Origin: Chthonomonadaceae bacterium
GTDB taxonomy: Bacteria > Armatimonadota > Chthonomonadetes > Chthonomonadales > Chthonomonadaceae
Direction: 5' to 3'
Length of the DNA stretch: 52,319 nucleotides
Assembly (NCBI GenBank): GCA_027450145.1
Contig: DAIDKH010000028.1
Coordinates: forward strand, 1-52,319
Below, in pieces: positions 2,280 to 31,186 of this stretch. The first letter of the stretch is position 1. Each line of letters opens with the position of its first letter. The notes beneath the pieces are model-generated. The model was not told where the DNA came from, searched no databases, and saw nothing but the letters and a program-made list of their open reading frames with translations. A program made the translations under genes and the position numbers.

Positions 2280-3224
2280 ATGGCTACTGCGATCTCCATC
2301 CAGGGCCTGACCAAGAAGTATGTGGATGTCTGGGCGAAACAAGAAGTCGTCGCTGTCAACAACCTCAATCTAGAGGTTCAGGAAGGCGAGATTTTTGGTT
2401 TTCTAGGCCGCAATGGCGCCGGTAAGACGACCACAATAAAGATGCTGCTCGGTCTAATCTTTCCCACCGCCGGCGACGCCACTCTGCTTGGCAAGCCGAT
2501 GGGCGATAACGTCGTAAAAAGCATGATCTCCTACCTTCCGGAGGAGACCTATTTTTATGACTCTATGTCCGCGTGGGATCTGCTGGATTTTTATGGTCGA
2601 CTGTTCCGAATCCCAGGTGCAGAGCGGCAACGACGGATCAAGCTTTCACTAGAGAAGGTACGCCTGCAACCCGAGGCCTGGCGGCGCAACATCCGCGGCT
2701 ATTCCAAGGGCATGCGGCAGAGAACAGGCATTGCCCAGGCTTTGATTAACGATCCAAAGGTCCTATTCCTCGACGAACCGACTTCCGGCCTCGATCCTAT
2801 TGCTCATGCAGAGCTGCGCGACATTGTTGCCAGCCTAAAAGATGAGGGTAAAACGGTTTTCCTCTCATCGCACCAATTAGCAGACGTAGAACTCATCTGT
2901 TCGCGCGTCGCTATTATCCATAGAGGTAAGCTGCTGCGCACGGGGCAAATAACCGACCTTACAGCCGGAGAGCGCACCGAGATTGTGGTGAAAGGTGCAG
3001 GGTTGACGAACGGCACACTGCAGAACCTTCGCGCAATCACTCCAGATATTGAACAGCTGGAAGAGATGCAGGCACTGAAGCTGTTTAGCGAGGACGACAA
3101 CCAGACCAGCGCAGTCATTGATCTGGTTAGAAACGCCAAAGGAAGCGTTATATCGGTCGTACCGCATAAGCGCACGCTGGAACAGATCTTTGTTGAGACG
3201 GTGCGAAAAGAGGAGGGTCTGTAA
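2280..3224 (+). CDS. ABC transporter ATP-binding protein
   Basis: 314 residues, cytoplasmic ATPase subunit of an ABC exporter. Visible motifs are Walker A GRNGAGKT (43-50), the signature YSKGMRQR (from 141), Walker B VLFLDEP (161-167), D-loop SGLDP and the switch histidine in SSHQL (about 198). The C-terminal ~90 residues after the nucleotide-binding domain match the extension of the CcmA/COG1131 class (NatA-like, antibiotic, lipid or polysaccharide exporters). A clear GGGAGG ribosome-binding site supports the ATG. The stop is directly followed by the ATG of the permease, so the two subunits form one complex. The substrate cannot be read from the sequence. Confidence 0.93.
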   Translation: MATAISIQGLTKKYVDVWAKQEVVAVNNLNLEVQEGEIFGFLGRNGAGKTTTIKMLLGLIFPTAGDATLLGKPMGDNVVKSMISYLPEETYFYDSMSAWDLLDFYGRLFRIPGAERQRRIKLSLEKVRLQPEAWRRNIRGYSKGMRQRTGIAQALINDPKVLFLDEPTSGLDPIAHAELRDIVASLKDEGKTVFLSSHQLADVELICSRVAIIHRGKLLRTGQITDLTAGERTEIVVKGAGLTNGTLQNLRAITPDIEQLEEMQALKLFSEDDNQTSAVIDLVRNAKGSVISVVPHKRTLEQIFVETVRKEEGL

Positions 3225-3998
3225 ATGGGTGTTATCTACGCAATCGCCCGCCAAACTGTGCGCGAGGCTTTGCGCCGTAAGATCATGTGGATCTTTCTCG
3301 TCATTGGCGTTTTTCTCATCTCTCTAGGCCCAGTTTTCGGGTTTTTAAGCCCTAAAGACAGTCAGACAGTTTTGCGAAGTCTTGGGCTCGCAGCAATCCT
3401 ACTGGCCGGTCTCTTCATTACCATCGTGACATGCATCTACCTGATTCCGGTAGAAATTGAAAGAAGAACCATCTACACGGTACTCAGTAAGCCTGTCCAA
3501 CGCTATGAGTTTCTTCTTGGCAAGTTTCTGGGCGGCTTTTTTACGGTGTTCATCAATATTGCTGCCATGGGCGTAGTCTTTTTGGCAATGCTCTATTTTC
3601 AGGAAGGGCACCACATCGCACCAGAGATGGCGCGAGGAGTTATGCTAACGTTCTTCCAGATGTTGTTACTTGCCGCAATCACGATCTTTTTCTCAACAAT
3701 TACAACTCCGGTAGTGAACTTCTTTCTGTCGTTTGGAGTTTTTCTTGTTGGAAACCTAAGTTCGGTCACGGATACTCTCACCACCTCGCACAACAAAATT
3801 GCGCACGGTGTGGGACAGTTCATATACTACATCCTGCCGCAATTTGGAAACTTCAATGTTCAGAACCGACTCATTCATCCCGACGAGAGTATCGTGAACA
3901 TGAACGTGTACATCATACACAATATCTTCTACTCTCTGGCGTACTCTGCCGTCGTGCTGGCTGTCGCGATCATCCTGTTTGATCGTCGCGAGGTATGA
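3225..3998 (+). CDS. ABC transporter permease, ABC-2 type
   Basis: 257 residues with about six hydrophobic segments (about 21-42, 55-75, 95-125, 140-160, 165-182, 233-252). Between the second and third lies ERRTIYTVLSKPVQRYEFLLGK, the hallmark of ABC-2/COG1277 permeases (the E-R-R/K-x-G/T-T...PV-R-x-E/F...K motif of the coupling helix). It begins on the base after the ATPase stop, with GAGGAGG just before it, and is followed one base later by the next ATG. It should dimerise in the inner membrane and work with the preceding ATPase. The spacing indicates a single three-gene transcription unit. Confidence 0.9.
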   Translation: MGVIYAIARQTVREALRRKIMWIFLVIGVFLISLGPVFGFLSPKDSQTVLRSLGLAAILLAGLFITIVTCIYLIPVEIERRTIYTVLSKPVQRYEFLLGKFLGGFFTVFINIAAMGVVFLAMLYFQEGHHIAPEMARGVMLTFFQMLLLAAITIFFSTITTPVVNFFLSFGVFLVGNLSSVTDTLTTSHNKIAHGVGQFIYYILPQFGNFNVQNRLIHPDESIVNMNVYIIHNIFYSLAYSAVVLAVAIILFDRREV

Positions 3999-3999
3999 T

Positions 4000-5517
4000 A
4001 TGACCAATTCTTCTCCAGCACCTAAGGTAAGTGGCGGCAAGATTTACCCTGCCTCCGTCAAGAACCGCGCTTACGTACTGGCAGGGGTTGCATTGATCAT
4101 GTATCTTGTTTCGTTGCGCGTTCAAGCCACTATACTACCCATGCGCAACAAGATGCAAGAGACCAAGAATGCTACACGAGTTATTGGTGGGCTTAACAAT
4201 GAGTTTCTATTGTTGCCTCTGTTAGGTTTCCGCGAGGCGGCTGCGGGCTTGTTGTGGGTGCGCTGCGACCAGTTTTTCGATAGCGGCGATTACGATGCTA
4301 TTCTGCCACTGGTTCGTGTTATCACTTGGCTGGATCCCCATGACTCCAACGTCTACGTCACAGGTGCGTGGCACATGGCGTATAACTTCACTGACTCGCA
4401 GGAGCGCTCGGATCGCAGGTACATCTATCCTTCCCAAGCACTGTTAACAGAGGGTATCCAGAACAATATGTTCATACCTGATGTTAAGTTCGAAAAGGGA
4501 TGGGAAAATTTTGACAAAATCAAAAACTTCCCCGAGGCTGCAGCGGCGTTCCAGTTAGCTATCGACACTCCACCCAACCGGAATAACCATGATTCCTGGC
4601 CACAGGGTGCACCGCTGAAAACGTGGCACATTCTTGCACATACCTACGAGAAAATGGGACGGATACCAGACGCCATAAACGTGTGGCACGAGGCAATGAG
4701 CATTAGTGCGTCGCGTATCAAGAGCCATGGTGGGCGAACAAAGGACTTTTCTGACTGGATGCTTCGCCAGGCGGAATTACATAATCTGCAAGAGGAGTAC
4801 CAGCGCTTTCATAACCGGTACACCGCCACGGGGCACGATCACGTAAATCCATCCAAATATCCGGGGGTTCAGTTCCCATTTGGCGGCTCCAACAAGCCGG
4901 GGCCATGGAACGTACACATTACCAACAAGATCACCGTGGTACGCCCGAAGGTTCTCCAGTTCACTGGTACTTTCAACAGTGCAGACGGAGCTCGTGTTGA
5001 CGTTCTAATTGAGGATTGGAACTACAAACCGCATATTGACAAGGATACCAGCACGGCATTCGCGGTGGATCCCAATCAGACAATACTGATGGACTCCATT
5101 GCTGTGCGCAAGGATGCGTATGATAGGCAGATGGATATGAGCAAGGATCCAAAGATGTACAGCTTTGCTCATAATTACTACCGAATTGTCGTAAGCTACG
5201 ATCCACGTACCACTGCACCCACCATGCAAGACAGGTTTGGCTGGAGTGGTGAAGGTATGACCGACGACAATCCTGACAGGCTGATTGTTGATTACACACC
5301 GGGGCAGATGGCCAACAAGTATATTGATGGCTTCGGGGCGACTGGCCCAATCTGGGATCCGGCAATTGCGCCGTGGCCGCAATACACCCAACCGAAACGC
5401 ATGTTGATGATTACGTACAAAGTGAGCCGCGATCAAATCATGGGGCGAAGCCCGATTACAGACGCGAATATTGTACCAAATAAGATCATGCCGCTTGGTC
5501 CGGGCATGCTACCGTAA
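4000..5517 (+). CDS. Membrane-anchored TPR-like protein of unknown function, linked to the ABC exporter
   Basis: 505 residues from ATG 4000, preferred over an upstream TTG at 3979 because GCGAGGT stands 6 bases ahead and the permease stop is one base before. One membrane segment (about 24-40) anchors it. Residues ~75-280 look like tetratricopeptide-type helical repeats (NFPEAAAAFQLAIDTPP, KTWHILAHTYEKMGRIPDAINVWHEAM). The C-terminal half (about 300-480) looks like a beta-rich domain with many Asp, Pro and Tyr. I do not recognise the family. Its place as third gene of the unit suggests an accessory component on the far side of the membrane from the ATPase, perhaps in export or envelope assembly. 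That role is inference from context. Confidence 0.7.
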   Translation: MTNSSPAPKVSGGKIYPASVKNRAYVLAGVALIMYLVSLRVQATILPMRNKMQETKNATRVIGGLNNEFLLLPLLGFREAAAGLLWVRCDQFFDSGDYDAILPLVRVITWLDPHDSNVYVTGAWHMAYNFTDSQERSDRRYIYPSQALLTEGIQNNMFIPDVKFEKGWENFDKIKNFPEAAAAFQLAIDTPPNRNNHDSWPQGAPLKTWHILAHTYEKMGRIPDAINVWHEAMSISASRIKSHGGRTKDFSDWMLRQAELHNLQEEYQRFHNRYTATGHDHVNPSKYPGVQFPFGGSNKPGPWNVHITNKITVVRPKVLQFTGTFNSADGARVDVLIEDWNYKPHIDKDTSTAFAVDPNQTILMDSIAVRKDAYDRQMDMSKDPKMYSFAHNYYRIVVSYDPRTTAPTMQDRFGWSGEGMTDDNPDRLIVDYTPGQMANKYIDGFGATGPIWDPAIAPWPQYTQPKRMLMITYKVSRDQIMGRSPITDANIVPNKIMPLGPGMLP

Positions 5518-5535
5518 AGAGTACGGCGTAGAACT

Positions 5536-5580
5536 AAAAAGGCGAGGAGGTTGTATCATTACAGCCTCCTCGCCTTTATT
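5536..5580. terminator. Strong bidirectional rho-independent terminator
   Basis: GGCGAGGAGG (5541-5550) pairs with CCTCCTCGCC (5565-5574), and the stem continues inward (one G-U, then TGTA/TACA) to a 4-base TCAT loop. A-tracts precede it and T-tracts follow it, so it can stop both the + strand ABC unit (ending 5517) and the - strand phosphomutase gene (ending 5642). Confidence 0.9.
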
Positions 5581-5641
5581 TCAACACAAGGTCTAACGTG
5601 TTGCGGCGATAGATAGAATACGTGGATTCCTATGATCCAGC

Positions 5642-6823
5642 CTACGCGAAGAGCATCTCCATGAGATATTCGCCGCGGGGTACCATCACCATGGGTTTGA
5701 CATGCACGCTTTCGTCAAACAGAACGTTGCTGTTGTGGGTTGGCTTTTGAGAGTCGTAGAAAAGAAATGGTACGGGACCATAGCCATGCTTGGTAGTAGA
5801 CACAGGAGTCATGTGGTCGGGTACTACTATCAGCCTCCAATCACTACCTGTAAAGTGAGAGACCAACGGTCCTACGATCTCTCGGTCGATCGCTTCTATT
5901 GCCTTTACCTTTTCTTCCGCGCTGCCAGCGTGTCCGGCTTCATCCGGGGCCTCTACATGAATCCATACGAACTCATTAGTTCGCGAAGCCTCTATGGCGT
6001 ATCGCGCCTTCGCTGAGTAATCAGTATCGAAGTACCCCGTTGCTCCAGGCACGGTAAGCACATTCAACCCACAGAGTTTACCAAGACCCTTTACAACGTC
6101 TACAGCGCCCACCAATGCTCCTGTGCAGCCACGAATCTGCTGAAACGGGCGCATAATCGGTGTTTTACCGGGAGACCAGGGCCATAAGGTGTTGGCAGGG
6201 GCAAGGCCAGCCGCTCTGCGCCTAACATTGATAGGATGATCGTTTAGCAAGGATTGCGACCGGCGAATAAAATCGATAAGCTCATCGGCATAATCGCCCT
6301 GCGGCAGTATCGCCTCCAACGCCACCCCCATGTTCTCGTGCGGTGCCTGGGTAGTTACATTAGCAGAGCCACCGCGCCAAGTGAGGATGTGCCTGTAGGA
6401 AATTCCGGGATAGAGCGTTTGCTGCGGCGAGCACAGTTCCTGCTGCGCCAGGGTAACAAGTTCATGCGCTTCTTCTGTAGAGATATGGCCGGAGCTGTAG
6501 TCTATGAGTTTATCGGTGCTTGCGGTGATAAGAGAGCATCGAAAGGCGACGTCCTCCTGATTGAGCACAATATCCATTGCGGCGGCTTCTACTGGACCAC
6601 GGCCGGTGTAGTACTCCGACGGATTATAGCCGAGAAGAGCCATATTCGCCGCATCACTGCCAGGATACATCTCCAACGGTGTAACTTGCACAGAGCCGAT
6701 GGTGCTTACAGCTGCCAGAGCATCTAGGTTAGGTGTACGAGCCGCTTGAAGAGGTGTTTGCCCATTTAGCTCCTGCAAAGGCAAGTCTGCCGCTCCGTCT
6801 GGTACAAGAAGTATATGTTTCAT
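5642..6823 (-). CDS. apgM: Cofactor-independent phosphoglycerate mutase, archaeal type / proposed homoserine kinase
   Basis: 393 residues, alkaline-phosphatase superfamily (COG3635 type). The N-terminal metal motif LLVPDGAAD, the putative nucleophile in YPGSDAANMALLGY (Ser about 56) and the C-terminal metal motif VVPDHMTPVSTTKHGYGPVPF are all present, and the length fits. In archaea the family interconverts 2- and 3-phosphoglycerate. Many bacterial members are instead annotated as a proposed homoserine kinase because they sit near threonine genes. Here homoserine dehydrogenase is only 1.5 kb away, which favours the second role, though it is on the other strand. No ribosome-binding site is visible; a TATAAT lies 6 bases before the ATG, so the message may be leaderless. 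A strong terminator follows. Confidence 0.85.
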   Translation of the reverse strand: MKHILLVPDGAADLPLQELNGQTPLQAARTPNLDALAAVSTIGSVQVTPLEMYPGSDAANMALLGYNPSEYYTGRGPVEAAAMDIVLNQEDVAFRCSLITASTDKLIDYSSGHISTEEAHELVTLAQQELCSPQQTLYPGISYRHILTWRGGSANVTTQAPHENMGVALEAILPQGDYADELIDFIRRSQSLLNDHPINVRRRAAGLAPANTLWPWSPGKTPIMRPFQQIRGCTGALVGAVDVVKGLGKLCGLNVLTVPGATGYFDTDYSAKARYAIEASRTNEFVWIHVEAPDEAGHAGSAEEKVKAIEAIDREIVGPLVSHFTGSDWRLIVVPDHMTPVSTTKHGYGPVPFLFYDSQKPTHNSNVLFDESVHVKPMVMVPRGEYLMEMLFA

Positions 6824-17762: not shown

Positions 17763-18455
17763 TCAGAGATCCTCCCATAAATCAAGTTGTTGCCCAAGTC
17801 CGCGCTTGTCGGTATCGCAGCTGCCTGTCGTAGTCTTTCGGTGAGCGGTATCATGAATAGCTAATCTATCATAATGCCAGGGTCTCAACAGGTTTACGGC
17901 ATCTGCTACTGAAGTACTTTTATCCAGCCAGACATTAACTTCTGATCTGGTAAGCAGCGCAGGCATGCGATCATGAATTTCCGCTATCTCCGTGGCAGGA
18001 TCAGTCGTGATGATGACACATGTGCGCTCTTCTAACCGATGGCTATTTAGTGTGGTGTCCCACAGCCCCGCCATCGCCAGCGGTTCATCGCCGTCAAACG
18101 AAATTTCTATGGGCTTACTGCGAGGCGGTCTGCTCTTGGGCCACTCGTAGTAGCCACTCGCAGGAACGACGCATCGGTTGGTTCGTATAAGGTCGCGAAA
18201 CATCGGCTTTTGGGTGACGGTTTCACTTCTAGCGTTAATGATTGGTCGCCCATTTTTTACAGAGGTAGACCATCGCGGGAACATACCCCAACGCATGGTG
18301 GTGAGCTGCAGTTCGTCACCCCCGGTCACAACGAGAATCTGCTGAGTGGGTGAAATATTTTCACCCTGTGCAAACGATGTCGCTGCTACAGGTAAGGCAC
18401 GAAAGAACGCCGCAATGTCCGCCGCTGAATGTGTAAGCAAGTACCTTCCACACAT
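17763..18455 (-). CDS. SRAP-family abasic-site processing protein (YedK/HMCES type)
   Basis: 230 residues from the ATG at 18455; the frame runs further upstream but the family always begins MCGR, and AGGA stands 7 bases before this ATG. Catalytic Cys2 in MCGRY forms a thiazolidine DNA-protein crosslink with abasic sites in single-stranded DNA. Other conserved elements are RWGMFPRW, the NARSET loop, YYEWP (catalytic Glu) and IHDRMPALL (catalytic His). Length is normal. It lies 188 bases downstream of the DrmB-like gene on the same strand and could be read through from the defence cassette, although it is also a common housekeeping gene. It is coupled to the small gene that follows. Confidence 0.93.
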   Translation of the reverse strand: MCGRYLLTHSAADIAAFFRALPVAATSFAQGENISPTQQILVVTGGDELQLTTMRWGMFPRWSTSVKNGRPIINARSETVTQKPMFRDLIRTNRCVVPASGYYEWPKSRPPRSKPIEISFDGDEPLAMAGLWDTTLNSHRLEERTCVIITTDPATEIAEIHDRMPALLTRSEVNVWLDKSTSVADAVNLLRPWHYDRLAIHDTAHRKTTTGSCDTDKRGLGQQLDLWEDL

Positions 18456-18643
18456 GACAAATCCTTGTGAACCAGTTGGCCATAGCAGTCTTAAGGAATG
18501 GTTCAGCCTCAATACTAGAGATGCAAGTGTACCACACCTACAAATCGGTTGGCACCCAGCTAGCATGGAATATAATGAGAGACGGCGAGCACGCCTTGGT
18601 TAATATCTCATGGCCACTTCCTGGCATTTGCAAGGACTTTTAA

Positions 18644-20524
18644 TTATCCAGTATATACTGCCAGCTGTTCATTAAGAATCTTCGAAAACAGTCCAACCTC
18701 AGGCTCATCGGGCAGCCCGATTAACAAGGCACGATCGAGGTACTGATTGTTGCATTCGCAGGAGGTCTCGGGCAGCAAAGCACATCCGTGGCAAGCTGCG
18801 AGAGTGAGGCTATTGTGAGTTGGCTGGTCCGTCTCAATGCAGACGGGATCATAGGAACACCAACGCGCATGATCTAGGGCACGAACCACTGTGTTTACCA
18901 GGCGGTCTGGTTTTCCTTGTCTTACCAAGCCGCCTAATGTACCTGCACTGTCACCGGCCGCGGTGTAAATAAGGATTCCATACATCGCGTTCTCTTTACT
19001 GGTGTCACAATACACTCGTTCTCGAAGTGAGGAGTTGCCATATCCAGATTCGATGGCGAACTGGTTGATGAGTATGTGGGCAAAGGTATGCAGCGCGATA
19101 CGAGCGGGCGAAACACCACCCGAAGAGTGCCATCCCGCGCGGTGTGCTGCCTCGCGTAGAGTATTCGCCCGTTGAACTACCGTTGGCAAACTACTCCAAT
19201 TGGTGAGAAGTTCAGGGCGTATCTCCAGGAAAATACCTTCTCCGTGCACGACTATTGCAGGTAGCCAGTCTGGTTTTTTGAAGCTCAGCGCGCGTGAATC
19301 TACGTCCGTAATCGTGCTAGGCGGGCGAAACCGCGTAAAGCCCGTGAACACACGCGTAGCTCTAAGCTTATGTACAAGGGTGACACCGGTTAAAATAGCA
19401 TCTAAAGGTGTACCGTACTGGTCGATGTCGATTTTCTGGCATTGCAGCTCTCTAGTGTCCTCGCTTATACCTGTAGATAAAAGATGGAACTCCGGTTGTC
19501 GCAGCGCTCCTTCCGCTTTGCTACGCTTACCGTTATCCGGTTTGCCATCGCTATCGAGTTGCTGCGTTCTGCTTCGTACCCATTCGCGGGCAAACTGCAA
19601 GAATGAGTTATGGCGTAAGGGTGAGATATTGCTACTTTCACATATAAGCTCGCAATCTTTAGCGAAGCTATCCGAGTAGGTGTCAGCGTCTGTCAACAAT
19701 CTTTGCGCTAGCCGCGAGTTTATAGCCACCTCGAATTCGGTCTCGGAGTGCGCGGCTCGTGGTAGGAAAATGGCCTCTATTGTGGCTGGGAAGTACACGT
19801 TGGAGGCGCCCCTCTCTAACACTGTTAGGTTATTGTTACAGGTTGTAGGCTTGTAGTTTGGTCCTAGCCAAGGCCGGTGGCCCTCACAACGTATGTTGAT
19901 TTGCGCGAGCGCACCTGGTGCGTGGATGTTAGATAGGTCGCGGCTCGCACCGCACGAACATGTAATCTGCACCGACCGCAACGACAAGGAGGTGTCCTTC
20001 ACATTGAAGCGCATCTCACAGGTTTCAGTGTGCGGTTTTGCTCTGTGAACCCACTCCAGATATGGAAAGTCTTGTATGTGACCATGTCGTTCACATACGG
20101 CTACGTACCGCATAGCTCGCATGATCGGACGACGAATCGCTGGCAGGTTGGCACAGCTGTTATTGGCTGCATATCGACTGCCAGTGCATCGGTGCGGTTC
20201 GCTGCACAGTGGAAGACATTTCATTACACCGCAGTTGGCACAATAGTGCCACCGAGGAAAGGTGTAGAGTGGTATTCGAAGGTTTCGTAGTGATTTTGGA
20301 CGACCAAAATTTGCTGCATCCGGAGGTAGCCGAAATTCCTTAACACCTAACTCCTCTTGTAGCCGCTCCTCGGTAATACGGAACATGGCAACGTCCTGGT
20401 CATCCATAAATCTATACCACGAGTCGATGCCCCCTGTCATAAGGGTCGCACCATCGGGGAAATCGATCATTGCTCCTACCCCGAAGTAGCTCACTAATTG
20501 AGATCGTCGTAATGTACGTGCCAT
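18644..20524 (-). CDS. drmB: DrmB-like DUF1998 protein of a DISARM-family antiphage system
   Basis: 626 residues from ATG 20524, preferred because translation then begins MARTLRRSQLVSYFGVGAMIDFPDG, the usual DrmB opening, with AAAGGAG upstream. The start is 4 bases after the DrmA stop. Zinc-type cysteine pairs occur early (YCANCGVMKCLPLC, about 91-105) and in CSCGASRDL. The C-terminal ~150 residues are DUF1998: LHTFAHILINQFAIESGY, GILIYTAAGDSAGTLGGL, and the ending CHGCALLPETSCECNNQYLDRALL. DUF1998 proteins work as partners of YprA/DrmA-type helicases (as MrfB does with MrfA), and with DrmA they form the DNA-sensing core of DISARM. No DrmC gene follows; SRAP is next. Confidence 0.87.
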   Translation of the reverse strand: MARTLRRSQLVSYFGVGAMIDFPDGATLMTGGIDSWYRFMDDQDVAMFRITEERLQEELGVKEFRLPPDAANFGRPKSLRNLRIPLYTFPRWHYCANCGVMKCLPLCSEPHRCTGSRYAANNSCANLPAIRRPIMRAMRYVAVCERHGHIQDFPYLEWVHRAKPHTETCEMRFNVKDTSLSLRSVQITCSCGASRDLSNIHAPGALAQINIRCEGHRPWLGPNYKPTTCNNNLTVLERGASNVYFPATIEAIFLPRAAHSETEFEVAINSRLAQRLLTDADTYSDSFAKDCELICESSNISPLRHNSFLQFAREWVRSRTQQLDSDGKPDNGKRSKAEGALRQPEFHLLSTGISEDTRELQCQKIDIDQYGTPLDAILTGVTLVHKLRATRVFTGFTRFRPPSTITDVDSRALSFKKPDWLPAIVVHGEGIFLEIRPELLTNWSSLPTVVQRANTLREAAHRAGWHSSGGVSPARIALHTFAHILINQFAIESGYGNSSLRERVYCDTSKENAMYGILIYTAAGDSAGTLGGLVRQGKPDRLVNTVVRALDHARWCSYDPVCIETDQPTHNSLTLAACHGCALLPETSCECNNQYLDRALLIGLPDEPEVGLFSKILNEQLAVYTG

Positions 20525-20528
20525 GTCC

Positions 20529-23500
20529 TCATTCTCCTTTGGTGGAAGATCTAACGATCTCGCCTGCACAGGGCGGTTCGACGCTTCGCATGGATGTTGG
20601 GGTTGGAAGGCTCCTGTGAGCATGATCCCCCGCGCCTATAACGTCCGATACGGCCACCATCAGTGCATTATTCGTTCTGTATTCCCCTGTAATTGCACCG
20701 TACTCTTGGGGCTCCCATTCCTTCCACGTCTGCCACACGTAGTCGAAATCAGCCAATACGCCATCCTCTTCCTCCGGATCGACGCATGCAACCCTGCGCT
20801 GTACTACATCGCGAATGCGAGCGACCAGCGCTGCATTTGGGACCGGCGATGGGTTTTCGGCTTCATGCGCATTTCCCCAAAACCGGGCGAGAATTATTAA
20901 AATCGCGTGCAGAGCACGTTCTCTAACGGGTGGGGCAAACGGTGTTACACTTGTGGGTTCCACATATCTGTATAAGCTAGCGTGGTAGGAGTGGAACCGC
21001 TCGTAATGCGATTGGTCACGACCTCGCTGCGTATTATAGACCGTGACTACTAAGCCTGGGCCGTTTTTGTGTCGTCCTACGCGGCTGGTGGCTTGAATAT
21101 ATTCAGACGTGTGCATCGGCTGACCCACGAGTGCCATAAGACCCAGACGTGGAACATCAAGGCCCACAGAGATCATGTTTGTGGCGAGACAAATATCGAC
21201 AGCATCGGCGCTGGTTGTGCGATTTACCCCCAATTGTTCCAGATAGCGCGGTATCTCGTCGTTGGGTACACGACTAGTGAGCTCAACAATTCTGGTGTCT
21301 ACTTTTCGCGGCTGCCATCCATACCGCCTTGCCAGTACCCGTGCATGTTCGCTAACCTCGCCGCTAAGGAGGGTTCGCGAATACCCTAGCTCCCTAAGCG
21401 TATTGAAGTAGGCTATAAGTGTCCAATAGGGATCAATGTAGGAATTGAGTGCGTCGGGAAGCCCGGCAATGCCCTGCAGTAACAGTGCAAACGTACGGAT
21501 TTGTGCCGTGACGAGCGAGTTTAGACCGTTTGCAAATATACCGAGATACATACGGCCGCAACGGGAATCATCGAATTGCGCGAAGAATGATTGCCCAGCT
21601 TCGAGGCATTGCGGTGGAAAGACTGCAATGTTACTGCGCTTTCTACCATACAGGCTGTGGCACTGCTCTACTGCGTGGCTGATGGTCGCCGTAGATGCAA
21701 CGATTTTAACCGGTCGGTTGCCCTGTTCCGTAGAACTGCAAAGAGCCTCGATGGCAGTCTCGTATAGACCTACCATCGTGCCAAGCGGACCGGAAATAAG
21801 GTGCAGTTCGTCTTGAATGATTAGTTCAGGAGGATCCGTTGGATGTGGACCGAGGCCGAAGAGGCTTTTTGCAGCAGGCCGCCATGGTAGGGTAGCAAAT
21901 TTGTCTACAGTTGCAACGACTAGAGTGGTTGGATTTTCGTATATATCCTCGTCAACGACAGATATCGGAAGTGGTGTATTGTAAAAATAGCACTGTTTGT
22001 AAGCGCACCTAAATATGACAGTCGATGGTTTGCGACTCTCTTCTAAACCAGGAGTCCGAATTGACTTGTTGTTTCGAACCTCCCCAATTTGTGCCCCACA
22101 CCATGGACATCTTTGCAGGACAAAACTGCTGGTAGCTGGTCTTCCGGCGGCAAGCTTCTGCAGCAGTTCCTTTGCGTCTTTGCGTGTACCCGGTGTGGTG
22201 GCATTTCCTAGCCACAAGCCTGCTGTAATTGCTTTATCACCTGGGATCAGTCTGCGCAATCTAAGATATTCCAGCGCGCATATCAATGAAGCGGCACGCG
22301 CGAACTGTTGAACAGTAAGTAGGCGCAGAGTATATCGCATTAAAACCGCAGTACCACCTTGGGTGGTACGGGACATGCGGCTGTTAATAATGGTGAAGGC
22401 GGTAAGGGCAAGGTATGCCTCGGTTTTGCCACCTCCAGTAGGGAACCATATGATGTCGACTATCTCGCGGTCTTGGTGTTGTTGATCAAGGGTACAGCAG
22501 ATGTTTATTAACACAAAGGCAATTTGAAATGGATACCACGCGTGACTCTGTCCGCTTTGTGAGTGGATGTCGTCTAACCCCTTGTCGTCTATTGGATCGA
22601 TGGCGAGTTTGTTACCGTCCACTAACTGAAATTTCCGAAGAGGCAACGAATATCGTCGCTCCTGAATGAGCATGGCATGATTCATAAGGTGGAAACATGA
22701 GCGTGCTTGTTGGTCGCTATCAAGACGATGAAGCCCCTCATGCATGCGCCTTAGACAACGTACGGCACCATTGATATTTTGCATTGCTGCCCGCGTTTGT
22801 GGCTCAGGTAAGTTCAAATTCGCTGCAGTGAGGCGCTGCTCATTGATCCACGCCTCATATTGATCGCATAGATTTACAAGCTCAGTTTTTGTTTCTTCCC
22901 ACTTATGAGGGTCGGCGTATTGCGTTTTGTTAAACCCAATACCAGTCAAAATGGATGGTACAATGGGTTTTACCTCGTGGCTTGGTATGCACTCTGTATA
23001 GATCACCGCCGCATACGTTTCGCTACCCATCTGCCAGTTGACAGAACAACCGTGACCGACCCCGTACACCTTGTAATGGCGGTAAAGCAATCGTAGGTTT
23101 GCCTCCTCCTCGTCACCGCCGTCAGGATCTGCCTCCGGGTATGGCGTTATGAATCCCCTTTCCTGTTGTGATTCGACGCGAATCTCGCATTGATAGGCCG
23201 GGTGTGATACGCTATCTTCGGCACAGTCGCCTCGATTGACCATTGAGATGGTAATTAGTCGTCGTCTTCCCTTCCTGTTCACGCCTAGATTTCTGCATTG
23301 GATTAATAGCTCGAGTTTGCCGCTGACAGAGATGGGGACAGGAATGGTTTCGGTACAAGTGTGCGTGGACTCGGGTAAACCCGCGCCTGTGAACAGTAAC
23401 TTCCGAAAATCTATGGGAATGCGTCGATGGACATTTTGCGGACCAGCGCCCTCTGTGGAGCGTTTGAGCTGAATATAGAAGGCGGCTTTCGCTGTAACCA

Positions 23501-23909
23501 GTATTCCCTCCACCGGGACATCACATAGGAAACTTAGCCCAATTGACGATGGTGGTCGGCGGAACCTTGTTACTACGGGGTCGTCGTTTACATCTGATAG
23601 GAGATCCTCATCGGCACCTAAATCCACGTCAGGCGCCGAGTCTCCCTCATGCGAGCAATCAGCTAACGGAGAATCAACCTCGGGCTCCGTGTCGATATCA
23701 TCAGTCGCTTGGGCAGAGGCCTCCGTCTTCGGCTTTTGGGTTTTCCAGTTCTGCGGGAAAAGAATTCCCGCTCCATAACGAAGGTACGCTGGCTCGCCGA
23801 TCAGCTCCTCTTCGTCATAACTGTCCTGAACCTTTGTGCCCTGGCCTGGCCCAACTAGATCGCGCTTAATAAGGCTAATTAGGTTGTCTCTTACGCTTTC
23901 AACAGTCAC
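20529..23909 (-). CDS. drmA: DrmA-like superfamily 2 helicase of a DISARM-family antiphage system
   Basis: 1126 residues, GTG start with GGGAG 7 bases upstream. The N-terminus (LISLIKRDLVGPGQG, then EPAYLRYGAGILFP) matches the DrmA pattern. Helicase motifs: Walker A WFPTGGGKTEAYL (about 486-498), motif II IIQDELHLISGPLGT (about 697), motif III VASTATI, and the C-terminal ATNMISVGLDVPRLGLM followed by YIQATSRVGRH (about 940). Four cysteines in CPWCG (about 599) and CAYKQC (about 634) suggest a zinc site between the RecA lobes, as in the YprA/MrfA group. It should load on DNA with DrmB to block phage DNA. It lies 30 bases after the DrmE-like gene and just before DrmB, clearly one operon. Confidence 0.9.
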   Translation of the reverse strand: MTVESVRDNLISLIKRDLVGPGQGTKVQDSYDEEELIGEPAYLRYGAGILFPQNWKTQKPKTEASAQATDDIDTEPEVDSPLADCSHEGDSAPDVDLGADEDLLSDVNDDPVVTRFRRPPSSIGLSFLCDVPVEGILVTAKAAFYIQLKRSTEGAGPQNVHRRIPIDFRKLLFTGAGLPESTHTCTETIPVPISVSGKLELLIQCRNLGVNRKGRRRLITISMVNRGDCAEDSVSHPAYQCEIRVESQQERGFITPYPEADPDGGDEEEANLRLLYRHYKVYGVGHGCSVNWQMGSETYAAVIYTECIPSHEVKPIVPSILTGIGFNKTQYADPHKWEETKTELVNLCDQYEAWINEQRLTAANLNLPEPQTRAAMQNINGAVRCLRRMHEGLHRLDSDQQARSCFHLMNHAMLIQERRYSLPLRKFQLVDGNKLAIDPIDDKGLDDIHSQSGQSHAWYPFQIAFVLINICCTLDQQHQDREIVDIIWFPTGGGKTEAYLALTAFTIINSRMSRTTQGGTAVLMRYTLRLLTVQQFARAASLICALEYLRLRRLIPGDKAITAGLWLGNATTPGTRKDAKELLQKLAAGRPATSSFVLQRCPWCGAQIGEVRNNKSIRTPGLEESRKPSTVIFRCAYKQCYFYNTPLPISVVDEDIYENPTTLVVATVDKFATLPWRPAAKSLFGLGPHPTDPPELIIQDELHLISGPLGTMVGLYETAIEALCSSTEQGNRPVKIVASTATISHAVEQCHSLYGRKRSNIAVFPPQCLEAGQSFFAQFDDSRCGRMYLGIFANGLNSLVTAQIRTFALLLQGIAGLPDALNSYIDPYWTLIAYFNTLRELGYSRTLLSGEVSEHARVLARRYGWQPRKVDTRIVELTSRVPNDEIPRYLEQLGVNRTTSADAVDICLATNMISVGLDVPRLGLMALVGQPMHTSEYIQATSRVGRHKNGPGLVVTVYNTQRGRDQSHYERFHSYHASLYRYVEPTSVTPFAPPVRERALHAILIILARFWGNAHEAENPSPVPNAALVARIRDVVQRRVACVDPEEEDGVLADFDYVWQTWKEWEPQEYGAITGEYRTNNALMVAVSDVIGAGDHAHRSLPTPTSMRSVEPPCAGEIVRSSTKGE

Positions 23910-23939
23910 TAATCGCTCCCTAAACCCAGGTAATCAAAA

Positions 23940-26843
23940 TTAATCGGTGCAGCTACGCGACTGATTTAACTTGTTCAGCACAGTGTAGGGAACACTGCAC
24001 TTTTCAACGCCCGCAATTCTTAACAGCTTTAACACGCCCAAACCAGGAATTTCGAACGTGCTGCCGTTATCAATGTCGATTCTACAGAACTCTGCCTCCA
24101 GCTTCTCTACTAGGTTCCGCGTAATCGATTCTCCTGCTGATCTATGCGCAGAACGCACTGTGTCGATGGCGTCCATCACCTCGTTGAGGTTGGTGGCGAG
24201 GAAGTTGTCACCAGTGATGTCAGCGATCACTTTGATGTGGTCGGCATCTTGAGGGCCAATAGGCTGTTCGCGCAACAGCCAAGTTTGCATGGTGGTGATG
24301 CCGATCTGCACGTTGTGGTTCTGAAGCAGTGCGTGTAGTTGACAGATCCTATCTCGATCTCCTTGCCAAAAGCCGAATCGGTTATGGCATCCTGCATATT
24401 GGCGCAATGCTTCTTTCCATCGGCCGGCTAACTTACGCAGATTTGGTTTGCCCTGGACAATAAGAATGTGATCCGCCATTTGGCGAACAATGTCGCTGTC
24501 CGAGCCGTCCTTAAGTACGATAACGTCATCTGCTACCAAGTCATCGGCATGTGTGACGGTTGTCTGGTAGGGATGTGCTTCCGTGGTATAGGCGAACGTG
24601 GGTGCGAGTGTAAACTCCCTGCTGTAGGGTGCATAAAGGTATGAACCATCGGCAAACTCAACATAAACTGCATCTACGTGTTCATCCGGAGAGTTTGCAA
24701 ATGCGCGACGGCTAAGTTCCATTTTGTACTGCCGCTGTCGCTGATTATGTTCGTCTGGTTCTGTATCTCTAAGTTTGTGCGTGTTCTTATCTACCGCTTC
24801 TTCGTGGGTGTTTGCAGGTTCAAGCAAGTGGGCCGATGGATAACCCAGTATTCTGTCAATGGTTTTGGCGCCAACCTTTCGAAGTACACAAGAATGGGTC
24901 TTGCCGATCGAGTTTTGATACCATACCTTTTCAAATGGATACAGCAGCAGTGTGGTTTCTTCGGCAATACGTCCGTCAATCAGGCCAACTGTTCGTTGAC
25001 GTCCAAGCCACCCAACGATTACTGCAGATTTTACGTACCCAATGGTGGCTAATGCTTGTGGGGTTGCACAATACACCCAGGTTCGATTGTTTGCAGCGTC
25101 GTCCACTACTTCCGTGCAGAACACACCATCGCCTATGGAAACGGGTGCGCCGTCACAGCGCGGCGACGGTGGCACCCGCGTTTCACCACGGGAAGCCGGC
25201 GTGGTGCTTTGGTAAGCTTGTTCACGTAATTTGTCAATATTGCTGATGTTCCAGGTGGAATTACTGTTAATAAGAATTAGCTTGGCGCGTGCTTGCTCGG
25301 ATGTTTGTACATCAGGTCTATCCGCTCCCTTGTATATGCTGCCCAGTTCTAGTGCCGCCGACTCTGCTTCCCGCTTATCACGGAAAACAAGTACACTGGG
25401 ATGGGGACTATGGAAAATAGTCCGAATAATGTGCGCGTGTTTCGTGGTTGGGCACTTTTTTATTTCATCAAACCACTGGCGGATGCTGCTTTCAACTATT
25501 TCAATCGCATCAATCTCCTTATCATTGAACCATTGCTTGGTGCGGTGGAGTGTTGCGACAAGCTCATCGAAGTTATGTTCGGACCCTTCCAAGTCATATG
25601 GTGTCGTTGCATCCAGTCGCCGGGACTCAGGGAGTAAGGTGCTGTAGAACGCTCGTTCAATATCCTTGCCATCTCCTGTAGCTTCTAGATCATCCCTTCG
25701 AATGGACGTAAAAGCGTAAAATGCCGCATCCAGCGGTGTCTCATTAAGGAAAATAGGGTTAAGATTTTCGCGGATAAGGTTCCAGTATCTAGCGCGCACC
25801 ACAGAGTTTGTGCCGTTGTTCGGAGGCAGCTTTTCGGTGGACTCAGCGTTCAAAATGTATCCAATAATGCGCTTGGTTAGTTCGATGACAGGCAGGTCCT
25901 GAGCTTGCATCCATTCGCCGGCTTGACTGTCAAGGATCGAATCGGCCAGAACGACTAATCTACGGTCATCATCCCGAAGACGGTTCCATGAGCTCGTATC
26001 TCGTAGAGCAACTTTGTCCTCAATGACAATCACTGGCTGGAGATTGTCGTGTCTTGTCAAAAACTCTTCGACCTCGTGAAGGCTCGCAGCGAGAAGAATT
26101 ACTGGAGATGCGCCATAGTCTCCGCTGCTGAGAAATTCCAAATCGCCCGTGCCACTGATTTTTGCGACCTGGATGCTCTGCAGAACGCCTACAGGCTCGT
26201 TTAATTGTATGTTGCCATCGGTTAATACCCAGCGCAACCGCTGGAATTGTTCTATTGATCTTGTAATATGGCCCACCAAAATGACTTCCGGACGGTATGG
26301 GTCGCGATTTCCATGTAGGTTCGTCTGCATTAGCCAATCAATAGGTGCATTTTCGATAGTGTCCGATTGCTGGTATGTACTGAGGTGTCGAGCCTTTTTA
26401 CAACTCTGAAGGCGTATTTTCTGCTCAGCTGATATTTTCCGAATCAACGGCTCACGGTTACCGCGTTTACTCCGTGTCTCGTACCCTATTAGGAGCCGAC
26501 CATCCTCTTCGCGAATGAATTGCCCAATCGAGGTCCCGTCGACTAAATAGTACCGGCCCTGTTGGAGATTTGGTTGGTAATCAGAAATCCTTGAAGCTCT
26601 GCGCTGCATGCCCGCAAGAGCGGTACACAGCGCAACCTCAACCATGTAGTCCTTAACAAGCGGCACCCTTAATACAAATGTCTTATGTTTGGTTCTGTGG
26701 GTGCCCCAGCACAGCGCTGCGATTACTCGTAGAACTGCGTGTGGTCGTTCGGGAGTTAGATCCTGTGCCGTAAAGCGAAATCGATGGTAAACAGGAAACT
26801 CATTGTCGATATGGTGGAGAACATCATTCCAGTTGCTCAACAT
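23940..26843 (-). CDS. DrmE-like large protein, first gene of the DISARM-family cassette
   Basis: 967 residues; GAGG 9 bases before the ATG. No signal peptide, membrane segment or canonical Walker motif is visible. The middle (about 180-330) alternates hydrophobic strands and acidic turns (PEVILVGHITRSIEQF, PVILLAAS, PVIVIEDK, RRLVVLADS), like a degenerate helicase or Rossmann-type lobe. The C-terminus (about 770-930) has DDVIVLKDGSDSDIVRQMAD, KLAGRWKEALRQYAG, TMQTWLLREQPIGPQDADHIKVIA and TVRSAHRSAGESI, a module I associate with DrmE, the unknown-function protein preceding drmA in class 2 DISARM. The gene order E-A-B also fits. Assignment is by pattern only. A protein from another YprA-helicase system is the main alternative. 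Confidence 0.5.
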   Translation of the reverse strand: MLSNWNDVLHHIDNEFPVYHRFRFTAQDLTPERPHAVLRVIAALCWGTHRTKHKTFVLRVPLVKDYMVEVALCTALAGMQRRASRISDYQPNLQQGRYYLVDGTSIGQFIREEDGRLLIGYETRSKRGNREPLIRKISAEQKIRLQSCKKARHLSTYQQSDTIENAPIDWLMQTNLHGNRDPYRPEVILVGHITRSIEQFQRLRWVLTDGNIQLNEPVGVLQSIQVAKISGTGDLEFLSSGDYGASPVILLAASLHEVEEFLTRHDNLQPVIVIEDKVALRDTSSWNRLRDDDRRLVVLADSILDSQAGEWMQAQDLPVIELTKRIIGYILNAESTEKLPPNNGTNSVVRARYWNLIRENLNPIFLNETPLDAAFYAFTSIRRDDLEATGDGKDIERAFYSTLLPESRRLDATTPYDLEGSEHNFDELVATLHRTKQWFNDKEIDAIEIVESSIRQWFDEIKKCPTTKHAHIIRTIFHSPHPSVLVFRDKREAESAALELGSIYKGADRPDVQTSEQARAKLILINSNSTWNISNIDKLREQAYQSTTPASRGETRVPPSPRCDGAPVSIGDGVFCTEVVDDAANNRTWVYCATPQALATIGYVKSAVIVGWLGRQRTVGLIDGRIAEETTLLLYPFEKVWYQNSIGKTHSCVLRKVGAKTIDRILGYPSAHLLEPANTHEEAVDKNTHKLRDTEPDEHNQRQRQYKMELSRRAFANSPDEHVDAVYVEFADGSYLYAPYSREFTLAPTFAYTTEAHPYQTTVTHADDLVADDVIVLKDGSDSDIVRQMADHILIVQGKPNLRKLAGRWKEALRQYAGCHNRFGFWQGDRDRICQLHALLQNHNVQIGITTMQTWLLREQPIGPQDADHIKVIADITGDNFLATNLNEVMDAIDTVRSAHRSAGESITRNLVEKLEAEFCRIDIDNGSTFEIPGLGVLKLLRIAGVEKCSVPYTVLNKLNQSRSCTD

Positions 26844-27421
26844 TGCGGCTGACCTCGGTCTAAACTTCCATTTAAGCGCTGGGATCGTAGTTGGTAAAGC
26901 CCGATGAAAGGATTTTCTACTCCCAATTTCAATAATCCTTCACTAACCGCTAATTTTCACTCTTGTAACCGATATCGTGCCACTCGTTTACTAAATACCA
27001 TCACTTCCCAACGCGGACACAGTTGAACTAACGGATCGTTTGATAGGTCACGGTAGTGATCGTGCAATTGCAAGGCGTGTAATGGAAAACCGTGTTCATC
27101 AACTCCCATACCGCTGCATCTATCAGTCACATCGCGGTGAGCACGAAAGTTTACCTGCTTTTGTGCAGCCGTTTGGCAGGTGAAACACTAGCTCGCGGCA
27201 AGACGCATCATACCAGGCCAGGCTGACTTTAGCGTTTCAAGAGTGTAATTGCTGATAGTTAAAGCTAACATGAAATTGAAGGATTAGTTATACCTGGTGT
27301 TCAATATGCGTCTAAATAGAGATAGACGATGGCTGCACCCGATTTGCAAGCGAACTAAAGGTAATGCGCCACTGATCGGTTGCTTAAATTCAAATTACAG
27401 TAAGTGAAGGAATGCCGATCC
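26844..27421. other. Intergenic region between the divergent defence cassette and the duplicated genes; holds repeat copy 1
   Basis: About 580 bases without a supportable gene. The first ~160 bases should contain the promoter of the minus-strand defence operon; I could not place it with confidence. Bases 27007-27315 are copy 1 of a ~308-bp repeat. The last ~105 bases lead to the downstream gene, with AAGG (27407-27410) 11 bases before its ATG. Confidence 0.6.
27007..27315 (+). repeat. Direct repeat copy 1 (~309 bp), upstream of the first duplicated gene
   Basis: Shares long matching blocks with 29147-29454 in the same order and orientation, from CCCAACGCGGACAC to TTCAATATGCGTCTAA. Clear anchors include CAGTCACAT, CAGCCGTTTG, AGACGCATCATACCA and GCGTTTCAAGAGTGT. 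The two copies differ by scattered substitutions and small indels. The copy ends 106 bases before the ATG at 27422. A minus-strand frame of ~75 codons beginning near 27203 is open through much of this copy but is disrupted in copy 2. Confidence 0.9.
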
Positions 27422-29047
27422 ATGAAGAAATCGCGCGCAGATCGTGCCACAAATGATATGAGTGAGACCGACCAACAGAGCCGTACCTTTGCACCTAACC
27501 GAGTGAGATTACCAAACGAAAGAGAAAAGACTTCAGCAACACCAGCGAGTCCACCGGAGAAAAGGGCCAGGGCCAATCGGCCAGCCATTGTTATCCCTAT
27601 AGTTCTACTGGTGATCGGTATTGGATTTGCGTTGCATCTACCGCAGGTTATCTCCAAGCATATGACGAGGAAGGAATCCTTCTCACCAGCCAGTACGTCC
27701 GACGGGGAAGCACTTTTTGTTCAGGCAGGTCAGTTAATTTCAACCAACATTGCAAATGTGAACGGCAATGTTGCCGGTTGGATTGTCACACCTGATTATC
27801 AGACCCTTTCCATGTTGGGCATGACAGGCATGGCGCCGGAAGCAGGTGACCGTTCTCCAAGACTCGGTAGTGCCTCTCAGGTACGCGCACGCCAAGTGGA
27901 AGAGATAAGTGCCGTAATGAACAGCAATAAAACCGCCATGAGCGACATTTCCATGGGATTGGGTAAAGATTGCATAATGGAAGGCAACGACAGTGAGTTC
28001 GTGACCAACCGTTGCAGCGCACTGCTTCTGTTGCGGGCTTACCTGCACTTGTTGCAACACGATTACAATGGGGCAATTTCCGACGCATTTATCACGTTAA
28101 AGCTGGACAGTCTGTTGAGCCGGAACGCTGCCATACGTAATTTCGCGCAAATACTCCGTTTGAATGGGGCAGCTCGCTCGCTTATCATTTATGTACTGCA
28201 GTTGCAGTATCCGCACTTTCCGTCTGTCACTGGCGCCCTGCCAGGTGTGTCTCGCGCAGTAATTGCGAAAATACAGAAGGAATTCAATGCCTATGTGGCA
28301 CAACGCGTTTCTTTGGGGGAAGTGCTTACTGCGTATTCGGATAGGTACGCAGTGAAGCTCATGAAAATGCTGCCTTCTGCAGGTGCATTGAGACCAGTTG
28401 CCACGGCGTTGTTTGATAATACCGTTCACCCGCCTATAAACTCCAGTTCAAATATGACCTCATCCAATAGGGTCATTACGCCCAAGAGTCTGCTCAACGA
28501 ATACGAATATGAAATGACGCGGTATATAGCATCGGTAAAGGGTCAGTATCAACAAGGTGAAGTCTACCCTTTACAATCATGGCAGAATCTGCTCATTCAA
28601 GCGGCGCCATCTGTGGGTGTACGCCTACGGCCAATGCCGCCTCTTACGCTGGACGAACATGCAGATTTGGCGTGGGACAGGATGGTACAGGTAACACTGG
28701 CCGAGCTGCTCTATGAGTACGATCATGGTACCCTGCCCGCATCGTTGAACAAGTTGGTTCCCCGCTATTTACCTGTAGTACCGGTAGATCCCTTTGCGCG
28801 AAAACCAGAAGCGCTACGGTATTTGGTGGCCGAGCCAAAGAATATGCCTTTTGGTTCGTTCAACTGTGGTGGATTAGTATACAGCGTTGGCCCGGATGGC
28901 AGTGACAATGAGGGACAGCCATATGAGACGTTTGAACCTGCAGGGAGCTTTGGAGGCAGGCAGCCTCAGTCATTGAACCCTATGACAAAGGGTGATCTTG
29001 TGGTTAACAACGAAGACGAAACGGCTTGGGAATTGAGTTACAGGTAG
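27422..29047 (+). CDS. Membrane-anchored protein of unknown function, tandem copy 1
   Basis: 541 residues from ATG 27422 (AAGG 11 bases upstream; a GTG at 27404 is possible). A charged 50-residue N-terminus precedes one membrane segment (about 55-72); the rest should be periplasmic and mostly helical. It is a paralogue of the product of 29558-31186. Shared blocks are ALFVQAGQLIS/ALLMHAGKLIS, PxYQTLSM, CIMEGxxxExxxNRCSxLLLL, LDSLLSR, LNGxARSLIVYVLQL and DEHADxAWDRMVQVTLAELLYE. The C-terminal 70 residues (LPASLNKLVPRYLPVVPVDPF...LVYSVGPDGSDNEGQPYE) form a module seen at the end of many planctomycete-type secreted and pseudopilin-like proteins. No catalytic motif was recognised. Confidence 0.75.
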   Translation: MKKSRADRATNDMSETDQQSRTFAPNRVRLPNEREKTSATPASPPEKRARANRPAIVIPIVLLVIGIGFALHLPQVISKHMTRKESFSPASTSDGEALFVQAGQLISTNIANVNGNVAGWIVTPDYQTLSMLGMTGMAPEAGDRSPRLGSASQVRARQVEEISAVMNSNKTAMSDISMGLGKDCIMEGNDSEFVTNRCSALLLLRAYLHLLQHDYNGAISDAFITLKLDSLLSRNAAIRNFAQILRLNGAARSLIIYVLQLQYPHFPSVTGALPGVSRAVIAKIQKEFNAYVAQRVSLGEVLTAYSDRYAVKLMKMLPSAGALRPVATALFDNTVHPPINSSSNMTSSNRVITPKSLLNEYEYEMTRYIASVKGQYQQGEVYPLQSWQNLLIQAAPSVGVRLRPMPPLTLDEHADLAWDRMVQVTLAELLYEYDHGTLPASLNKLVPRYLPVVPVDPFARKPEALRYLVAEPKNMPFGSFNCGGLVYSVGPDGSDNEGQPYETFEPAGSFGGRQPQSLNPMTKGDLVVNNEDETAWELSYR

Positions 29048-29557: not shown

Positions 29558-31186
29558 ATGAAGCTAAAGCAGCACTCACCGCTAGTGCCTGATAAGTTCT
29601 CTGACAACAGGCAGAAGGCGGCGGTTGAACCGAATACTGGGCGATTGCCTAATGACCACGACGTTCATTTAGTTAGGGCCCACCGACTAGGTGGTGTAAC
29701 CAGGTTAGCTGTTCGCGGTGCGGTAATTGTTGGCCTTGCCCTTGCAGCGGTCTCGGTTTTAACCAAAGTTCGCCTCCGCCTAAAGGTGGCAGAGCGCAAT
29801 CCTTTACCTATTTCTATTGTGGCAGTAAAAACTCCGTTACGTTATCTCGATGGTGCCGCCCTACTCATGCACGCCGGTAAGTTGATCTCTATTAATGAGA
29901 TTGGTGCAAATTCCCGGTTTGTGAGTTGGTTTACCAACCCGAATTACCAAACACTGTCAATGGTAAATCCTATCCCGTACCCTGCGGGAACCGGTACCAC
30001 AACGACCGCAGCTGCCAACAACGCCTTGTTCACCCAGCAGAAGATTGCACTATTTAGTGCCATGCTGGCCAAGAATAAAAAAGCACTGGCCGACATCCAC
30101 CGTGGTATGCGCGAAGGCTGCATCATGGAAGGCGTACCTGGTGAATACATTGCCAACCGGTGCAGTGGACTTTTGCTTCTTCACGCCTATTTGCAGTTGC
30201 TAAAGAAGAACTATGATGGCGCCCTCCACGATGCGTTCGACACATTAAACCTTGACAGTCTTCTCAGTCGTGATGCCAACGTCCGCAACTATGGCCAGTT
30301 GTTACAATTAAATGGACTTGCCCGATCACTTATTGTGTACGTCCTTCAACTAGAGGACCCCGGTTTTCCACAGTTTGGTGCCGGCAAGCAATTACTATCG
30401 CGCCACCAAGTGGTTCGTTTGCAGAATCAGATGAATGCCTACATGCAGCACCGTGTTTCGCTGGTTGATGTGTTGAATGCCCAGACCGAGCGGTACGCTC
30501 ACAAGTTGGCGGGGTTGTTAGCCACGTACTATACGCCTCATGCACTTGCCATTGAAAAGGCCAAGGGCGAAACGAGCCCCACCATCCTTCAGCGACTCGA
30601 GGCTACACATGACGTTTTAACCTACAGCCGCAAAGAGTTTCTCACCCGTTACGAGGAGGCAATGAAGTCATATATTGCTTCTGTAGCGGGGCAGTACCGA
30701 CCTCTAAAGCGCTATCCATTAAGCTCCTGGCAGAGATGGCTCAGTCGAAGGTCGACCTCGATTTCTGTGAAGTTGAGACCACCAATCCCTCTTACTGTCG
30801 ACGAGCATGCGGATATTGCGTGGGACCGGATGGTACAGGTTACCTTGGCAGAACTGCTTTATGAGTTCGATCACAAAACTCTGCCTCCAACATTGCAGGC
30901 TCTTGTGCCGGAGTACCTGCCTGCTGTACCCATTGATCCTTTTGCGCGCCAACCCGCGCCGCTGCTCTACTACGTTACGCCGCCTAATCAGCTGCAATAT
31001 AACCCCACCAACAGCGTTGGGCTCGTTTACAGCGTGGGCCCCGATGGTGTGGATGATAACGGGCAGCCATATGAGGAATATCAGCCTTTGGGCCGCTATA
31101 ATGGGTTGCAGTCGCAATCGCTTAACCCTTCGACCAAGGGTGATCTTGTGGTGAATTATGAGGATGAACAGGCGTGGAATCAATGA
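29558..31186 (+). CDS. Membrane-anchored protein of unknown function, tandem copy 2
   Basis: 542 residues; GAGGTGAGG lies just upstream of the ATG. A hydrophilic N-terminus, one membrane segment (about 50-68) and a large, probably periplasmic domain parallel those of the protein encoded at 27422-29047. The N-terminal 70 residues have diverged strongly, while the helical core and the C-terminal module (LPPTLQALVPEYLPAVPIDPF, LVYSVGPDGVDDNGQPYEEY, SLNPSTKGDLVVNYEDE) are well conserved. Copy 2 has an extra segment around residues 345-360 and a slightly altered CIMEG block (GCIMEGVPGEYIANRCSGLLLL). Its TGA overlaps the next ATG, so it is coupled to a third membrane protein that copy 1 lacks. Confidence 0.75.
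   Translation: MKLKQHSPLVPDKFSDNRQKAAVEPNTGRLPNDHDVHLVRAHRLGGVTRLAVRGAVIVGLALAAVSVLTKVRLRLKVAERNPLPISIVAVKTPLRYLDGAALLMHAGKLISINEIGANSRFVSWFTNPNYQTLSMVNPIPYPAGTGTTTTAAANNALFTQQKIALFSAMLAKNKKALADIHRGMREGCIMEGVPGEYIANRCSGLLLLHAYLQLLKKNYDGALHDAFDTLNLDSLLSRDANVRNYGQLLQLNGLARSLIVYVLQLEDPGFPQFGAGKQLLSRHQVVRLQNQMNAYMQHRVSLVDVLNAQTERYAHKLAGLLATYYTPHALAIEKAKGETSPTILQRLEATHDVLTYSRKEFLTRYEEAMKSYIASVAGQYRPLKRYPLSSWQRWLSRRSTSISVKLRPPIPLTVDEHADIAWDRMVQVTLAELLYEFDHKTLPPTLQALVPEYLPAVPIDPFARQPAPLLYYVTPPNQLQYNPTNSVGLVYSVGPDGVDDNGQPYEEYQPLGRYNGLQSQSLNPSTKGDLVVNYEDEQAWNQ

Follow-up and report, generated by a model that had tools for sequence, protein, structure and literature searches.

A candidate methylation-independent, reduced DISARM-like cassette encoding DrmE, DrmA and DrmB

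The DNA stretch analysed here (the window, 52,319 nucleotides) contains a compact E-A-B cassette, a minus-strand operon of three genes (18644-26843) encoding a DrmE-family protein, the helicase DrmA and the DUF1998 protein DrmB. The reading towards which we lean from the sequence, with a little better than even confidence, is that of a reduced, methylation-independent DISARM-like anti-phage cassette that would recognise the structure of DNA ends. All reading frames of the operon are open and co-directional, with 30 nt between drmE and drmA. The drmB frame as called (18644-20623) begins within drmA, and the ATG at 20524 is its likely start (...NEDMARTLRRSQ), which leaves a gap of 4 nt to drmA. 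Coordinates, strand and both gaps are those of the tight operon that a sequence-only reading of the same DNA had described, and the identities it gave to the three proteins (DrmE-like, DrmA-type and DrmB) are all matched by profile searches, with DrmA just under the cut-off of NF038325.

In these searches, DrmB scores 448 bits against NF038324 (cut-off 240) and is also matched by PF09369. DrmA reaches 894 bits against NF038325, slightly below the equivalog cut-off of 950, and 673 bits with the PADLOC DrmA model, versus 34 bits for DpdJ. The comparison with PDB entry 7s9v gives 475 bits for DrmA and 274 bits for DrmB. The DrmE-family protein scores 135 bits against NF038316 (cut-off 80) and 31.9 bits against PF24957, DrmE_C (cut-off 27), and matches neither the DISARM_DrmE equivalog NF038323 nor any PADLOC DrmE model. 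The helicase motifs of DrmA are intact (PTGGGKTE, QDELH, STAT and QATSRVGR). The MZB is carried by DrmB, in a gene apart from the helicase, and the helicase itself is nearest to DrmA, both in the tree and by profile scores.

Table 1. Coordinates of the cassette genes, the acidic DrmA segment and the adjoining SRAP gene in the window
Feature	Positions	Strand	Remarks
drmE-family gene	23940..26843	-	967 aa; predicted SF2-helicase-like RecA fold, C-terminal beta/helical region
drmA	20529..23909	-	1126 aa, GTG start; SF2/YprA-branch helicase
Acidic low-complexity DrmA segment	23555..23753	-	residues ~53-118, about 67 residues, net charge about -12
drmB (DUF1998/MZB)	18644..20524	-	about 626 aa from ATG at 20524
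SRAP/YedK-type gene	17763..18566	-	267 aa; PF02586 196 bits; 77 nt downstream of cassette

Among the known systems, DISARM type II (DrmE, DrmA, DrmB, DrmC and DrmMII) shares with the window the presence of a DrmE-family gene, drmA and drmB in one operon, and the residues of DrmAB important for DNA recognition are retained. However, the window lacks drmC and drmMII, its DrmE matches the wider DrmE_fam and not the equivalog, and its DrmA stays just below the equivalog threshold. PADLOC requires DrmA, B, C, E and MII for type II (PMC9252829), and with DrmC and DrmMII lacking, the cassette is not class 2 DISARM by that definition. PADLOC's type I definition prohibits drmE, and the window differs from type I in having a DrmE-family gene and, by profile search of the window, no DrmMI-like gene near the cassette. 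With the DISARM-like YprA branch, the cassette has in common that the helicase and DUF1998 module are encoded by separate adjacent genes, the helicase being closest to DrmA. ARMADA, BRIGADE, TALON (which uses a NERD nuclease; PMC12458937), Druantia and Dpd also have a YprA-branch helicase, but in the window the helicase and DUF1998 each have a gene of their own, and the DrmA and DrmB models score far better; ARMADA, Druantia and Dpd are ruled out by these model scores. Where the sequence-only reading had left a choice between a reduced DISARM and another YprA-helicase class, the DrmA tree favours the former and the profile scores speak against the latter. Bell et al., who make no mention of DrmE, assign 'many uncharacterized DISARM-like' classes to this branch (PMC12458937), so methylase-less variants are not unheard of in principle. 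What is new here is the loss of methylase and nuclease inside a clade that has both, together with a genome-wide check.

DrmAB loads on single-stranded DNA with a 5' overhang and is autoinhibited by a trigger loop (residues 176-232), while V1296 contacts a base, the ATPase is lower on methylated DNA and DrmC is stated to be dispensable (PMC9142583). DISARM reportedly still blocks phage with DrmMII methylation (PMC10286901). In the window, V1110 of DrmA aligns with the base-contacting V1296, and all four zinc-binding cysteines of the 7s9v DrmB align in DrmB. The acidic segment of DrmA (Table 1) sits where the trigger loop is, with the alignment to the 7s9v chain starting from residue 188, and a comparable acidic segment is present in all 16 other DrmA proteins in which it was locatable by motif. 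Its position and composition, not conserved residues, suggest a trigger-loop-like element. How self-targeting would be avoided without a methylase had been left as a question; the published trigger loop and 5'-overhang preference (PMC9142583) answer it in part, and the corresponding parts are retained here.

DrmE has no relative in the PDB by sequence. The AF2 model of the window DrmE is of medium confidence (pLDDT 66.8); its N-terminal domain is RecA-like and superposes on UvsW with a Z-score of 10.0 (3.9 Å over 181 residues), and the second RecA domain is weakly modelled. For the DrmE of a Clostridium relative, the model is better (pLDDT 74.1), with RecA1 giving a Z-score of 12.5 (3.3 Å, 162 residues) and RecA2 one of 12.2 (2.8 Å, 119 residues). 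The pattern GxxxxGK[ST] is absent from the window DrmE, and a Walker A at the RecA1 position occurs in none of the aligned full-length DrmE copies. Structure prediction, which had been proposed as a check, gives an SF2-helicase-like fold for DrmE without Walker A, and we infer from the models that it is an ATPase-dead, P-loop-less subunit with the fold of an SF2 helicase. This fold prediction was not found in the papers searched. DrmE was also considered as a hidden nuclease; helicase-type RecA folds ranked first in the structure comparisons, and the poorly modelled parts may still hold nuclease folds, including ones of families that these comparisons did not list.

The cassette probably works like the DrmAB core. 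DrmA and DrmB would form an ATP-driven motor that loads on single-stranded DNA and 5' ends, as known from DISARM, and DrmE may be an accessory helicase-fold subunit that helps to recruit or hold the DNA or the complex. In a lineage from which the C5-methylase and the NERD nuclease-helicase seen in its relatives would both have disappeared, self-attack would be avoided mainly by DNA structure, with the acidic trigger loop keeping the motor from loading where the DNA offers no free 5' single-stranded end. Such free 5' ends would be those of freshly injected or replicating phage DNA, and the phage may be stopped by DrmAB loading and translocating, or via a general host nuclease. It is conceivable, although we hold it rather doubtful, that the system is minimal in every respect, without methylase or dedicated nuclease: DNA ends alone, via the trigger loop, would then decide what is self, DrmAB loading and translocation would stop the infection and DrmE would be ATPase-dead.

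The absences in the assembly (4.14 Mb in 168 contigs, 96.65% complete, ~3% missing) rest on profile searches. Absence of drmC and a methyltransferase had been noted for 5 kb on either side of the cassette; it extends over the full 52-kb window, where no frame matches a C5-, N6N4-, Eco57I-, MmeI- or Dam-type methylase profile, or a DrmC or NERD-helicase profile. Across the assembly, there is no match to PF00145 (C5-methylase) or PF08378 (NERD), and neither a DrmC by the class I model (DrmC-I) nor a standalone DrmC-like PLD. PLDc_2 is confined to three large unrelated frames (707-1181 aa); by eye, one of them resembles polyphosphate kinase. A drmC and methyltransferase elsewhere in the genome had been named as evidence against a reduced system; the assembly holds no drmC-like gene and no C5-methylase, but does hold a CcrM-like orphan. 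The list of missing parts was right for drmC and the methylase, but incomplete, since the NERD-nuclease/helicase gene of the clade relatives is missing too.

Methylation might still mark self in trans, which we regard as unlikely; the enzyme would be one encoded in the ~3% missing from the assembly, the orphan CcrM-like methylase of contig C11 or the type IIG enzyme of contig C103. Most relatives have a C5-methylase within 10 kb, methylated DNA lowers the ATPase of DrmAB (PMC9142583), and the genome does contain an intact CcrM-like N6/N4 methylase with a RAMA domain (L088, 381 aa), the sole intact DNA methylase found in the assembly, as well as a type IIG frame at the edge of C103. However, the CcrM-like gene is placed in a housekeeping context, the C103 frame is far closer to the IIG models (194 bits) than to DrmMI (55 bits), PF02384 is matched by an HsdM fragment of 46 positions only (G000:C4:26815-26946), and no C5-methylase is found in the 96.65% complete assembly or in the genome of the genus-mate G049. 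The HsdM fragment and a broken N6N4 methylase copy (L090, contig C26) are what this genome retains of restriction-modification systems now broken. On C103, an AriA/AriB (PARIS) pair adjoins the contig-edge type IIG restriction-modification gene (L089, 2715-7038), forming a further defence spot.

Scanning whole genomes with an alignment of DrmA yielded 54 loci, 34 of which, including the window, contain DrmE; gene content was scored on six-frame ORFs, and methylases within 10 kb. A C5-methylase lies within this distance in 24 unique loci of the 33 others (25 with a duplicate assembly), and adenine methylases only are found in one of the 34. Eight of the 34 are without methylase, four of these being truncated by contig or record ends; the other four are G079, a Nostoc plasmid, a Bacillus locus and the window. 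G048, from the same family but another genus (L012, the same as L030), has the three genes in the order of the window, with about 41-44% identity for DrmA and DrmB. What comes after them is, judged by eye, a small BolA-like ORF and a gene for an ammonium transporter, with no drmC or methylase; the contig begins inside drmE, and the upstream flank is unseen. G079, from the same phylum, has on one contig a divergent E-A-B set with a 175-aa DrmC directly after drmB, and no methylase beside the cassette. C5-methylases are present elsewhere in the genomes of both G048 and G079, a difference between G048 and the window. A survey for a methylase-free E-A-B trio had been suggested; no methylase lies beside the cassette in G079 or on the visible side of G048, and a nearby C5-methylase is the usual state among the relatives. 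No match was obtained in plasmids (tblastn with the G048 DrmE, P0004) or in viral contigs (DrmA scan).

In 19 unique loci, drmE and drmA are separated by a gene for a NERD nuclease/SF1-like helicase. The resulting four-gene order (DrmE - NERD nuclease/SF1-like helicase - DrmA - DrmB), which a nearby C5-methylase usually accompanies, recurs in loci that include L031 (Eubacteriales), L033 (Bradyrhizobium), L036, L041 (Rhodopirellula), L053 (Clostridium bowmanii) and L075; neither this arrangement nor a name for the group was found in the literature searched. In L053, an AIPR abortive-infection-type protein is located between the C5-methylase and drmE (1509-5643), and in L033 (3053-8230) and L036 (2847-8225), DrmE is N-terminally fused to about 850-900 aa with a P-loop (GADGTGKS and GPSGTGKS, respectively). 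The DrmE HMM built here also catches shorter, C-terminal-only homologues (500-550 aa), which were retained, an example being supported by NF038316/PF24957. Such DrmE proteins, in L032, L034, L038, L046 and others, align with the family model in its C-terminal half only. The gene before them encodes 310-370 aa (no Pfam match in the case tested), and the two may be a DrmE split in two. The three proteins of the cassette co-diverge over 28 loci (Spearman 0.82, 0.72 and 0.67, the pairs not being independent), and the best match of all three window proteins is the same locus, L030. Between the window DrmE and its nearest relative, identity is only 27%.

Among DrmA proteins linked to DrmE, the tree unites the window with G048, Clostridium bowmanii and the Eubacteriales locus in one clade (99/96), in which the pairing of the window with G048 is weakly supported (82/46). 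The four-gene cassettes L053 and L031, nearest to the window in DrmA and sharing its E...A-B order, have both the NERD-helicase and the C5-methylase. The window, with no NERD gene in its 30-nt drmE-drmA gap and no methylase, and G048, whose upstream side is unseen, are without both. Since the other branch of this clade has both genes, the more parsimonious course of events is that the planctomycete line lost them, and the reduced E-A-B form looks derived. The genus-mate G049 shares the gene order of the left flank as far as the SRAP gene, which adjoins the last 42 codons of drmB, 83% identical to the window drmB at the amino-acid level. The remnant abuts a 381-aa orphan ORF unrelated to the cassette and a 515-aa HSP70-like ORF (L101, 15878-18700), and the site is the place where the cassette was replaced. 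From the remnant it follows that the cassette predates the divergence of these species and can be done without, which is often true of defence genes. The drmB tails of window and G049 differ by codon position as 10/3/28 over 43 codons; the predominance of third-position differences fits purifying selection on drmB between the split and the deletion.

That the window cassette is itself a decaying leftover, no longer defending after the loss of nuclease-helicase and methylase and about to disappear as it has from the genus-mate, where those 42 codons remain in the same place, appears improbable to us. The DrmA branch of the window is long (1.07 versus a median of 0.45), which, with the 27% identity of DrmE, would fit relaxed constraint or a change of function and also tells against the preferred reading of a working cassette. 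However, three long intact ORFs are present, of about 2,700 codons together and with all catalytic and zinc motifs, the gene order is kept in G048 in another genus, and the shared drmB tail differs mostly at third positions.

Around the cassette, the neighbourhood consists of planctomycete-type genes (PSCyt2/PSD1, DUF1501, WD40 and sulfatases), with neither a tRNA nor a clear change in base composition. Two paralogous plus-strand ORFs (27404-29047, 547 aa, and 29558-31186, 542 aa) diverge from drmE; they have no Pfam match and, by eye, an N-terminal membrane segment. The SRAP gene is unlikely to be a component of the system, being retained at 66% identity in G049, where the cassette is lost and only the drmB remnant lies beside it. 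A YprA-family DNA-repair or genome-maintenance module instead of a defence system, to which the repair roles of YprA/MrfA relatives (PMC12458937) and the neighbouring SRAP (AP-site) gene could point, is very improbable: the cassette is rare and patchy (the DrmE family occurs in 3 of 291 Planctomycetota genomes) and was lost in G049 while SRAP stayed, and the window helicase groups with DrmA and not with a housekeeping MrfA-like clade, the placement that would have told against the sequence-only reading. Housekeeping MrfA, a single-chain helicase with fused MZB, is ruled out: the genome has its MrfA-like helicase elsewhere, on contig C78 (803 aa), with an HRQ1-type winged helix and MZB.

The preferred reading of a reduced, DNA-end-recognising cassette bears on the question of whether DISARM depends on methylation to leave its host unharmed. 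Structural work favours DNA ends and the trigger loop, yet the operons carry methylases. With the methylase and nuclease that its closest relatives keep both lost, and no C5-methylase detected in the genome, the cassette is a natural and direct test case.
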